From NCBI GenBank assembly GCA_026705295.1, contig JAPPBA010000096.1, positions 1-47,309 of the forward strand: a stretch of 47,309 bases of DNA, in the 5' to 3' direction. The DNA comes from Candidatus Palauibacter australiensis. Its GTDB lineage: Bacteria > Gemmatimonadota > Gemmatimonadetes > Palauibacterales > Palauibacteraceae. Below are positions 24,720 to 27,272 of the stretch, piece after piece (positions within the stretch are counted from its first letter, which is position 1; each line of letters begins with the position of its first letter). A program made the position numbers and the translations under genes. The notes beneath the pieces are model-generated. The model did not search any database and was not told the DNA's origin. It worked only from the letters and a program-made list of their open reading frames with translations.

Positions 24720-24749
24720 TTGATTCTGAACGGGAATATGGTCTATATT
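24720..24749 (+). promoter_or_regulatory. Putative vapBC promoter with overlapping operator palindrome
   Basis: TTGATT, 18 bp, TATATT. The -10 lies within AATAT-GGTCT-ATATT, a perfect 5+5 inverted repeat at 24,735-24,749, as expected for an antitoxin operator. The segment CGGGAATAT (24,731-24,739) also equals one half of the hipB operator. The rest of the 24,611-24,804 gap holds no gene. Confidence 0.5.
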
Positions 24750-24804
24750 GGTCCAGTTTCCCCGTCAGGGACTGAGTCGGTCATCGGATGGAAGGAGCAG
24801 GTCG

Positions 24805-25095
24805 GTGGACACTTCGGAGTTCGCACGCACATGGAGGATCGCCGAGGCGAAGGCGCGCCTGTCCGAGATCCTGCGTCTCGCGGACGAACAGGGACCACAG
24901 CGTATCGGCGTTCGGAGGTCCTTCGTCGTCGTGTCCGAACGCCTTTGGCGGGAGAAGGCTCCGATCCGGCAGCCTCTCGGCCGGTGGCTGATCGACCACA
25001 TGCCTCGCGGGCTGGATCTCGAGATTCCCCGGGAGCGGGGGTCCACGCGACCGATCCCCTTCGCTTCGGATGACGTCCGGGACGACACCGAATGA
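24805..25095 (+). CDS. Phd/YefM-family antitoxin
   Basis: A 96-aa antitoxin that should neutralise the PIN-domain toxin encoded next and repress the pair. The GTG start is set by AAGGAG exactly 7 nt upstream. Upstream frame readthrough is low-complexity. The N-terminal DNA-binding part reads WRIAEAKARLSEILRLADEQGPQRI, the standard Phd helix pattern (NAKAxLSELL), followed by VRRSFVVVSERLW in place of the usual GRPVAVLVS strand. The C-terminal segment GRWLIDHMPRGLDLEIPRER is typical of the toxin-wrapping tail in VapC-partnered Phd proteins. TGA overlaps the toxin ATG. Confidence 0.85.
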   Translation: MDTSEFARTWRIAEAKARLSEILRLADEQGPQRIGVRRSFVVVSERLWREKAPIRQPLGRWLIDHMPRGLDLEIPRERGSTRPIPFASDDVRDDTE

Positions 25096-25511
25096 GCGGC
25101 ATCCTGCTGGACACCAACGTGATCTCGGAGCTGACGAAAGGGACCCCCGCCCCACCCGTGGTCGCGTTCCTGTCCGCACGAAACGACCTATGGCTGTCTG
25201 CGCTGGTGTTGCATGAACTGGAGTTCGGCCTGCGCCTCCTGCCTCACGGAAGGCGGCGAGACGCGCTGCGCGGCGTGCTGTCGGGGTTCATCCGCCGCTA
25301 CGAGGACCGTGTTCTGCCCGTGGACGAGAAAGCCGCCGTGTGGGCCGCACGCTTTCGCGCGGACGCTCGCGAGCGAGGACGTATGCTCGACCTGGGAGAT
25401 GCGCTGATCGCCGGAACGGCCAAGGCCTGTGACTTTTCGATTGCGACGAGGAACGTGGCGGATTTCGACGGACTTGAGGTCGTCGTCACGAACCCGTGGG
25501 AGTTCGGCTGA
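25092..25511 (+). CDS. vapC: VapC-type PIN-domain toxin (ribonuclease)
   Basis: A 139-aa Mg-dependent RNase toxin that cleaves tRNA or rRNA in characterised relatives. The acidic quartet is complete: Asp7 in ILLDTNVISEL, Glu42 in LHELEFG, Asp103 in LGDALIAGTA and Asp124 in ATRNVADFDGL, ending VVTNPW. The sequence resembles the FitB/VapC subgroup. The ATG is inside an ATGA overlap with the antitoxin. The last 26 nt overlap the 3' end of hipA on the opposite strand. Confidence 0.92.
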   Translation: MSGILLDTNVISELTKGTPAPPVVAFLSARNDLWLSALVLHELEFGLRLLPHGRRRDALRGVLSGFIRRYEDRVLPVDEKAAVWAARFRADARERGRMLDLGDALIAGTAKACDFSIATRNVADFDGLEVVVTNPWEFG

Positions 25512-26781
25512 CCCGGCCGGCTCCGGCGGAGGTCGATGCCATGCATTGCTCGGCCCGGCCCACGACGGTGTCGCGGAATCGCGAGAGCGCTTCTGCATCC
25601 AGCCCCGGAGTCACTAGCTCCTGCGCCACGTTGTGTGCCTTCCGGATCACCGACTCCCCGAGTTCGGCAACCCGCCTCCGGATGAGCGGGAGTCCGACCG
25701 TCGTTTCTTCGGCAAAGGCCGCCCAGTGGCGAGCATCCATCTCGGCAAGCCCTGCACACCCCCCGATGGGCATGGCGAGAGCGGGCGACAGCTCCGGGTA
25801 GGCGGCCGTCATCACGAGGTCGTAGAGCGGCGCGAGACGAGGTCCGGCGGCGTCATACAGGAGTGAGAAGTTCTTCCCGTGCGCGTCGGCGTTGCCGACG
25901 ATCAGGTTGAAGATCGTGGCGTCGAGGAGCTTGAGAACGTCGACGGCGGGGCGGAGGGCCACCCGCCGCAGGAGCTCGAAGCCACCCTTAAGATCCGGAC
26001 CACCCTCCGCCGCGTATTTTGCTTCGGGCGGTATCCCGAGCGCCTGACAGAAATCCTCCTGGTGACCGCGGCGGACTCGACCGTCCGGTCCCGTCGATCG
26101 ATCATACCGTGCGACCAACAGCAGCGTTCGGTCCCCCACTCTTCGGGGCTCCGCGGATGCGACATCCAGGCCCACCGCCCGCGCGAGCCGCATCACGAAG
26201 GCCTCGTTCTCCGTCGTGTGGGGGAAGTCGGGGATCGCCGGTTTCAGGATGTGAGTCGTGGGCTGCCCCGGCGCCGGAAGAGCGATCTGACCGTCGACCG
26301 TGACGACGGGCAGTTTCGACTGGGCGCCAGCGAGCGACAGGCGGAGGCCGGCCTCGCCGGCGAGCAGGGGGCGCCACGGCAGCCTGTCGAGCACCTCGAT
26401 CAGTGCCGCGTCGTCGAGCGGTTGAGGCGAATAATCGGATTCGAGATCTGTCGGCGCTTCTCCGGGCGGCAGGAGTTGGAGCGCGCCCGCCACGTCGCCT
26501 CCGAGACGATCCAGAAGGGCGAAGTCGTTCAGGGGGGAGACGCCCAGCGATCGTGCCACGCGGTCCCGCTGGATCTCTTCCGGCAGGAGGCCGGCGAAGA
26601 ACGGGCGGCATTCGCGGCGGGGGTATGGTTCCGCACGCCTGGGCAGCGATGCGGACAGTGCCGGGGCCCGGCCGTCCCGCAGCCAGTCCTCCGCGTACGC
26701 GAACTGGAGGGTGGCAGGCCGCGGCTGCGTCAAACGGCCGACGAGCCGCCCATCCCACCAGATGTCGAGGACGCGGCTCAC
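25486..26781 (-). CDS. hipA: HipA-type serine/threonine kinase toxin
   Basis: A 431-aa kinase toxin. The best-known relative phosphorylates glutamyl-tRNA synthetase and induces dormancy. Motifs align with E. coli HipA: Ser149 in RLSLAGAQSK (autophosphorylation/ejectable loop), Lys180 in THILKP (ATP binding), Asp299 in VGNADAHGKNFSLL (catalytic) and Asp321 in LAPLYDLVMT (metal). The N-subdomain (WWDGRLVGRL, SLPRR, FFAGLLPE) is intact. GTG start overlaps the hipB stop as GTGA, so translation is coupled. The 3' end runs antisense into vapC for 26 nt with no room for a terminator. Confidence 0.95.
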   Translation of the reverse strand: MSRVLDIWWDGRLVGRLTQPRPATLQFAYAEDWLRDGRAPALSASLPRRAEPYPRRECRPFFAGLLPEEIQRDRVARSLGVSPLNDFALLDRLGGDVAGALQLLPPGEAPTDLESDYSPQPLDDAALIEVLDRLPWRPLLAGEAGLRLSLAGAQSKLPVVTVDGQIALPAPGQPTTHILKPAIPDFPHTTENEAFVMRLARAVGLDVASAEPRRVGDRTLLLVARYDRSTGPDGRVRRGHQEDFCQALGIPPEAKYAAEGGPDLKGGFELLRRVALRPAVDVLKLLDATIFNLIVGNADAHGKNFSLLYDAAGPRLAPLYDLVMTAAYPELSPALAMPIGGCAGLAEMDARHWAAFAEETTVGLPLIRRRVAELGESVIRKAHNVAQELVTPGLDAEALSRFRDTVVGRAEQCMASTSAGAGRVSRTPTGS

Positions 26782-27035
26782 GTGTCGCGAACGCTGGCGG
26801 GTGCGGTCGCGTCGCCTCTGGGTGGGGGAACGATCTCGACGGAACAGCCGAGCGCCGCCAGCACCTGAAGGACCTTTCCGATCTGCGCGGTCGGTTTTCC
26901 CGCTTCAAGATCTACGATGAAGCGCAGACCCACTCCCGCGACACCCGCAAGCTCATGCTGGCGCAGTTCCGCGTGCTTGCGCGCGGTACGGACGATTTCG
27001 CCGATATCGGAAGGCGTGACGGTTCGTTTTCTCAT
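26778..27035 (-). CDS. hipB: HipB-type XRE antitoxin/repressor
   Basis: An 85-aa helix-turn-helix protein that binds HipA and represses the operon. The XRE fold is clear: IGEIVRTARKHAELRQHELAGVAGVGLRFIVDLEAGKPTAQIGKVLQVLAALG, with recognition helix GLRFIVDLEAGK. The C-terminus (VEIVPPPRGDATAP) is the flexible tail seen in HipB. The ATG is touched directly by operator palindrome 1. The only Shine-Dalgarno-like bases, GGGA, are inside that palindrome, so repressor binding would cover -10, transcription start and leader. Confidence 0.92.
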   Translation of the reverse strand: MRKRTVTPSDIGEIVRTARKHAELRQHELAGVAGVGLRFIVDLEAGKPTAQIGKVLQVLAALGCSVEIVPPPRGDATAPASVRDT

Positions 27036-27154
27036 GATATTCCCGATCGGGAATATCGGGTGTTTCCCAGCCGCTTGTCAACCGTATTTTTCCCGATCGG
27101 GAATATTTGCAGGTATTCAGAACTAGTGTGAAGCAGAATTTCCCGATCGGGAAA
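27036..27154. promoter_or_regulatory. hipB operator array: three palindromes at 50-bp centre spacing
   Basis: Each site has the exact 14-bp core TTCCCGATCGGGAA. Site 1 (27,036-27,057) is a perfect 22-bp palindrome, flanks GATA/TATC. Site 2 core is 27,090-27,103. Site 3 is a 16-bp palindrome, 27,139-27,154. Centres lie at 27,046.5, 27,096.5 and 27,146.5. Site 1 covers the -10 to the hipB ATG, site 2 lies just upstream of the -35, and site 3 approaches the tRNA-Gly 3' end. E. coli hipBA also has several operators, so cooperative looping or filament-like repression is plausible. Confidence 0.88.
27052..27081 (-). promoter_or_regulatory. hipBA promoter
   Basis: Perfect -35 TTGACA (complement at 27,076-27,081), 18-bp spacer, -10 GATATT (complement at 27,052-27,057). 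The -10 is the upstream edge of operator palindrome 1. The predicted leader is only about 10-15 nt. Confidence 0.7.
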
Positions 27155-27199: not shown

Positions 27200-27272
27200 A
27201 GCGGGCGACCGGGGTCGAACCGGCGACCTTCAGCTTGGAAGGCTGACGCTCTGCCAACTGAGCTACGCCCGC
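27200..27272 (-). tRNA. tRNA-Gly (anticodon TCC)
   Basis: A 73-nt cloverleaf: acceptor GCGGGCG/CGCCCGC with discriminator T; D-arm GCTC-AGTTGGCA-GAGC; anticodon stem TCAGC/GCTGA with loop CTTCCAA, hence TCC; T-arm GCCGG-TTCGACC-CCGGT. CCA is not encoded. Its 3' end points toward the hipBA/vapBC block. Confidence 0.96.

Follow-up and report, generated by a model that had tools for sequence, protein, structure and literature searches.

The DNA analysed here, a 47,309-nucleotide stretch from Candidatus Palauibacter australiensis (the window), carries an array of palindromic operators upstream of an intact hipBA operon in this member of the Gemmatimonadota, and comparison of its sequence with those of relatives establishes a centre-to-centre operator spacing that is conserved across phyla independently of the spacer sequence. 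The array consists of three exact copies of the 14-bp core TTCCCGATCGGGAA (27040-27053, 27090-27103 and 27140-27153), spaced by 50 and again 50 bp, and a base-exact re-check returned the centres 27046.5, 27096.5 and 27146.5 that the initial annotation had assigned to three identical cores. The same re-check bore out its claims that site 1 is a perfect 22-bp palindrome reaching from the -10 to the hipB ATG, found as GATATTCCCGATCGGGAATATC at 27036-27057 and abutting the ATG, and that a TTGACA is located between sites 1 and 2 (minus strand, 27081-27076). The array is made up of the following parts.

27036-27057, no strand: operator site 1, a perfect 22-bp palindrome with its core at 27040-27053, overlapping the -10 and abutting the hipB start codon.
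27052-27057, minus strand: -10-like GATATT inside site 1, separated from TTGACA by an 18-bp spacer.
27054-27089, no strand: spacer 1, 36 bp, containing the -35 and conserved in length.
27076-27081, minus strand: -35 element, the hexamer TTGACA in spacer 1.
27090-27103, no strand: operator site 2, a 14-bp core just upstream of the -35.
27104-27139, no strand: spacer 2, 36 bp, without a promoter, conserved in length and identical to spacer 1 at 11 of 36 positions in register.
27139-27154, no strand: operator site 3, a 16-bp perfect palindrome, TTTCCCGATCGGGAAA, with its core at 27140-27153.

Base composition predicts approximately 0.00015 exact cores per window as compared to the three observed, which rules out a chance origin. 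The search for further copies that had been suggested along with the annotation was run on the organism's own genome (3.58 Mb) and yielded no fourth exact TTCCCGATCGGGAA, only five scattered sites with one mismatch; the notion of wider regulon sites in this genome was dropped owing to the absence of a fourth exact core. A tRNA-Gly(TCC) gene is present at 27200-27272 on the minus strand, 46 bp beyond site 3; it precedes the array and shares the strand of hipBA, so that read-through from it would cross all three operators.

A scan of GTDB genomes for any TTCCCGNNCGGGAA pair at 35-65 bp centre to centre listed 119 stretches, a subset of at least that many matches, and among those listed adjacent spacings of 49 bp occurred 49 times and of 50 bp 87 times, as compared to 22 occurrences of all other values, with a HipB homologue near the array in 102 of these stretches and a HipA homologue in 88. 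In a set of 117 hipB-linked TTCCCG arrays, which includes relatives selected by homology besides the listed scan matches, the proximal spacing was 50 bp in 64 and 49 bp in 43 (107/117), and the hipB-linked arrays with 49-50 bp were distributed over at least 12 named phyla. Spacings of 41, 42, 46, 52 and 60 bp were mostly found where HipB is absent, in several cases within minisatellite-like repeats; tandem TTCCCG minisatellites without a nearby HipB, with periods of 41-52 bp, were observed in L018 and L029 (41-42 bp) and in L036 (52 bp). When 82 HipAs were placed on a quickly built tree, some branches of which are long, the label 49 or 50 changed at least 12 times, and among the listed GTDB-derived arrays on this tree no drift to 45-47 or 53-56 bp was seen. 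The spacers of the 50-bp class share a median pairwise identity of 31% as compared to 26% when shuffled, and the features conserved in them are those of the window, namely the -35 at -28 and T/A beside the -10: in 35 of 107 arrays the best TTGACA-like hexamer precedes the proximal site by 28 or 27 bp, by far the modal position, conservation of the A at -3 among relatives is 88%, and the placement of site 1 relative to the promoter is the same in relatives.

Conservation of length over diverged sequence was also evident within the genus, where eight orthologous arrays (L124-L131, that of the window included) all retain three sites, seven of them with a spacing of 50/50 and the eighth with 49/50. 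Relative to the window, 3-13 of the 36 positions differ in spacer 1 and 6-28 in spacer 2, and differences among the same-genus spacers reach 14/36, or 28/36 in L131; spacer length is nevertheless constant save for one 1-bp deletion, with several length differences just beyond site 3, and TGTCAA, the complement of the -35 core, is retained in all of these arrays. The proposal that the spacing is under selection was thus upheld by the retention of 49 or 50 bp in 12 phyla despite diverged spacers and by same-genus lengths within 1 bp, and relatives with variable spacing, which were looked for, did not emerge in the TTCCCG hipBA family. What had been called exact spacing holds to approximately 1 bp, whereas a value of exactly 50 does not, since relatives use 49 or 50.

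Because the GTDB scan had selected on the core, a core-agnostic test was run in which HipA loci were chosen by protein family from Gemmatimonadota, other genomes and viral contigs, and any pair of similar palindromes upstream of 170 such loci was sought against a null derived from shuffles. Arrays were obtained at 26-28, 39-40, 49-51 and 71-72 bp, and among the 63 loci at or above the 99.9% quantile of the null the proximal spacing was 26-28 bp in 16, 39-40 bp in 5 and 49-51 bp in 31. Core and spacing matched: TTCCCG-like cores occur at 49-50 bp, TGTCGNCG-like cores at 26-28 bp and the Escherichia coli TATCC core at 28/39/28 bp. Each hipBA family is thereby shown, at the level of sequence comparison, to keep a fixed spacing of its own, 50 bp being family-specific and not universal. 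The TGTCGNCG-CGNCGACA-like palindromes, spaced at 26-28 bp, represent a second class of HipB operator, which serves other hipBA loci (L345, L276, L237, L243, L277 and others) and lies upstream of them.

Pairs of the same operators were also detected in phage DNA. The same TTCCCGNNCGGGAA pair pattern in IMG/VR, whose contigs may contain prophage flanks or misassigned DNA, gave 61 stretches at 35-65 bp, 10 at 66-96 bp and 5 at 14-34 bp, and following deduplication 46 of 63 arrays had a spacing of 49-51 bp; this excess has a binomial probability of approximately 1e-52 (62 arrays, range 14-96 bp), with relatedness ignored, and distinct arrays are not equivalent to independent events. Two palindromic control motifs of the same composition had zero matches in IMG/VR. 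Of 50 TTCCCG records examined, 49 yielded no convincing HipB homologue and the other, L189, is a real hipBA locus, while a marginal match in G352 (E = 0.009) was excluded from the count; the pairs were accordingly rejected as operators of the same phage's own hipBA. These records carry two exact cores in 48 of 50 cases and three in the other 2, and the orphan pairs at 49-51 bp are found in phage stretches L155-L223. Phage tRNA genes flank or immediately precede several of them (L166, L182, L211, L214, L216 and L223), others are near gene-end hairpins in what are probably Rhizobium-like prophages, and the neighbours are diverse, with no single gene family to which the pairs could be tied. Seven 51-bp pairs (L167, L169, L192, L193, L197, L199 and L205) apparently lie in frame and encode VPxRE...VPxRE over 17 codons, for which selection may act either on the DNA or on the protein. 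A -35 in the style of hipBA was not evident by eye in the spacers of orphan pairs.

An analogous situation was encountered for the E. coli type of operator, as TATCCN8GGATA pairs in IMG/VR (L408-L527) comprise at least 122 distinct arrays; 107 of the 122 listed have a spacing of 27 or 28 bp, as between O1 and O2 of E. coli, with spacers that differ. No hipBA was present near the listed pairs except in L443, a chromosomal hipBA locus, and a HipB search of the whole of 50 such records returned nothing convincing (weak HTH matches of approximately 30% identity in four), so these pairs too were discarded as the phage's own hipBA operators. Named relatives of these records matched by BLAST are enterobacterial phages. 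Named isolates with phage pairs are few and one was confirmed, Klebsiella phage ST846-OXA48phi9.1, in which the pair (2896-2941 of L528) is positioned at the 3' end of a gene following the lysozyme gene and directly before a terminator-like hairpin; strict terminators adjoin 7 of 107 listed E. coli-type pairs, 1 of 46 TTCCCG pairs and 1 of 104 random positions. Our search of the open-access literature found neither a cross-phylum 49-50 bp rule nor phages with orphan HipB operator pairs, and no account of such pairs as HipBA decoys.

The operon downstream of the array of the window comprises two genes, hipB preceding hipA, with a 4-nt overlap at 26778-26781.

26778-27035, minus strand: hipB, encoding an 85-aa XRE/HTH_3 antitoxin-repressor, with its ATG at 27035.
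25486-26781, minus strand: hipA, encoding a 431-aa HipA kinase toxin, with a GTG start.

HipB matches Pfam HTH_3 (4.3e-6) and, at 78.3 bits against the NCBIfam cut-off of 71.65, TIGR03070 (couple_hipB), while HipA matches Pfam HipA_C (5.4e-50) and Couple_hipA, and exceeds the cut-off of TIGR03071. The closest solved structures are those of E. coli HipA (E of approximately 6e-39), and kinase identity was judged by the region of the P-loop serine (SLAGAQ) and the two catalytic or Mg aspartates (E. coli D309 and D332); S149, D299 and D321 of the window HipA occupy conserved or near-invariant columns when aligned to E. coli HipA. Together with the palindromic operator array over the hipB promoter, the domains, kinase residues and gene order identify the locus, on predicted features, as a HipBA type II toxin-antitoxin module. 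A tripartite HipBST was ruled out as a single 431-aa HipA carries both domains, and so was an E. coli-type operator (TATCCN8GGATA at 28/39/28), the core being TTCCCGATCGGGAA at 50/50.

Among known systems, E. coli K-12 hipBA resembles that of the window in its HipB/HipA operon, autoregulation and a palindromic array over the promoter with fixed spacings of 28, 39 and 28 bp; it differs in having four operators (O1-O4, TATCCN8GGATA) as compared to three sites with the core TTCCCGNNCGGGAA at 50/50, and the window HipB lacks the C-terminal Trp that has been called universally conserved (PMC3376134). For hipBA1 and hipBA2 of Caulobacter crescentus, evenly spaced operators have been described and the idea of a higher-order complex already stated, in a study of one organism without a cross-phylum spacing rule or phage sites (PMC7029023). 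The Legionella HipBST system likewise has three evenly spaced operators, of 18 nt and conserved across 28 species, with 53-bp gaps that amount to 71 bp centre to centre if measured between the 18-nt sites, yet it is tripartite, with another core, a longer spacing and asymmetric O2 and O3 (PMC10653801).

The three palindromes most probably represent operators through which HipB autoregulates hipBA, their spacing being dictated by a HipB(-HipA) assembly of fixed geometry. One HipB dimer would cover the -10, the start point and the ATG from site 1 and another would sit at site 2, just upstream of the -35; the two would enclose the promoter of the downstream hipBA operon, and site 3 would lengthen the array by one spacing unit upstream. 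Adjacent dimers, most likely each with HipA, would form one cooperative assembly, and its fixed geometry would require centres about 4.7 helical turns apart, so that the 50-bp spacing is selected. E. coli HipB represses by binding its four operators cooperatively, and HipA-HipB2-HipA imposes a bend of approximately 70 degrees on operator DNA (PMC3376134); within HipA/HipB/operator complexes HipA has been found to dimerise (PMC7029023). For the present array we infer that HipB binds, that it does so cooperatively, that HipA bridges the dimers and that the DNA is bent. Of the higher-order repressor complex proposed in the initial annotation, the hipB operators and the selected spacing stand, with 50 bp as a value specific to the family and not universal; binding by HipB, a part for HipA and DNA bending are its putative elements.

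Several observations weigh against this reading. The proximal interval is 64-65 bp in L055, L137 and L138 and 30 bp in L134 and L140, exceptions which mean that the complex tolerates deviations. Expressed in helical turns, 28 bp corresponds to 2.67, 39 bp to 3.71, 50 bp to 4.76 and 71-72 bp to 6.76-6.86, and a common rotational phase (28, 39, 50, 61, 72, 83) is only suggestive: the phase, defined post hoc, accommodates 9 of 16 off-mode orphan spacings (p of approximately 0.01), 26-27 bp fits it less well, and testing unselected loci for a period gave no significant result (p = 0.96), for which reason a universal helical-phase rule was dropped. The arrays L055, L137 and L138 belong to Gemmatimonadota hipBA loci and are spaced at 48-51 bp further upstream.

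Of the other explanations, the one that fares best, though we consider it unlikely, is that HipB dimers cooperate directly or through the DNA alone, without HipA, the spacing then reflecting the geometry of HipB; E. coli HipB alone has been described as a cooperative repressor (PMC3376134), but for an 85-aa HipB direct contact over 36-bp spacers would be hard without looping or a bridging partner. It is less probable still that promoter geometry alone sets the spacing, with site 1 covering the -10, site 2 preceding the -35 and the dimers acting independently. The positions of the -35 and -10 relative to the proximal site are indeed conserved, but sites 2 and 3 of the window are 50 bp apart with no promoter between them, some arrays continue to four or more sites at approximately 50 bp, with spacings of 49-50 bp further upstream, and the orphan phage pairs hold 49-51 bp without an evident promoter; promoter geometry alone is therefore insufficient to explain the spacing. 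A relic of an unselected 50-bp tandem duplication is strongly disfavoured and highly improbable despite the identical cores and the true TTCCCG tandem repeats in L018, L029 and L036, as spacers 1 and 2 are unrelated (11/36 in register, best shift 15), cross-species spacers are near random with their length retained, and same-genus spacers diverge without a change in length.

Whatever their function, the orphan phage pairs are retained at the right distance where no promoter is evident, which points to the pair, rather than the single site, as the recognised unit, and they afford an independent test of this. The reading we favour, at somewhat less than even weight, is that the phage pairs at cognate spacing (TTCCCG at 49-51 bp, E. 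coli type at 27-28 bp) may be decoys for the HipB-HipA of the host. In an infected cell such decoys would capture this complex and keep HipA inactive and DNA-bound, and may also or instead shield HipB from Lon; operator DNA slowed the degradation of HipB by Lon in vitro (PMC3376134). Phages would in this way counter HipA-mediated growth arrest by means of DNA alone. HipAD (DS-6), whose HipA-family kinase has been validated as an effector of anti-phage defence, resembles the window's system in having such a kinase but is distinct from it, its partner being unrelated to HipB (PMC13092281). Alternatives to decoys are control of phage genes by host HipB, transcription roadblocks, or another phage protein of the same specificity and geometry. 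The fixed, family-specific centre-to-centre distance provides a rule, readable from DNA alone, for HipBA operator assemblies in 12 phyla, and renders the role of the higher-order HipB-HipA complex testable by spacing mutants outside E. coli; if the decoy reading is true, viruses would have a strategy against a toxin-antitoxin kinase that consists of DNA only, and the long-debated hipBA would gain a concrete phage link.

The window harbours a second toxin-antitoxin pair at 24748-25511 on the plus strand, in which a PIN/VapC toxin gene (25092-25511) is preceded by a small Phd-like open reading frame (24748-25095) that overlaps it by 4 nt and is without a Pfam or NCBIfam match; the PIN/VapC gene is convergent with hipA and overlaps its 3' end by 26 bp. 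The same genome also carries a second hipA (L331, contig C90), with a borderline palindrome pair at 40 bp and another core, and a third hipA.
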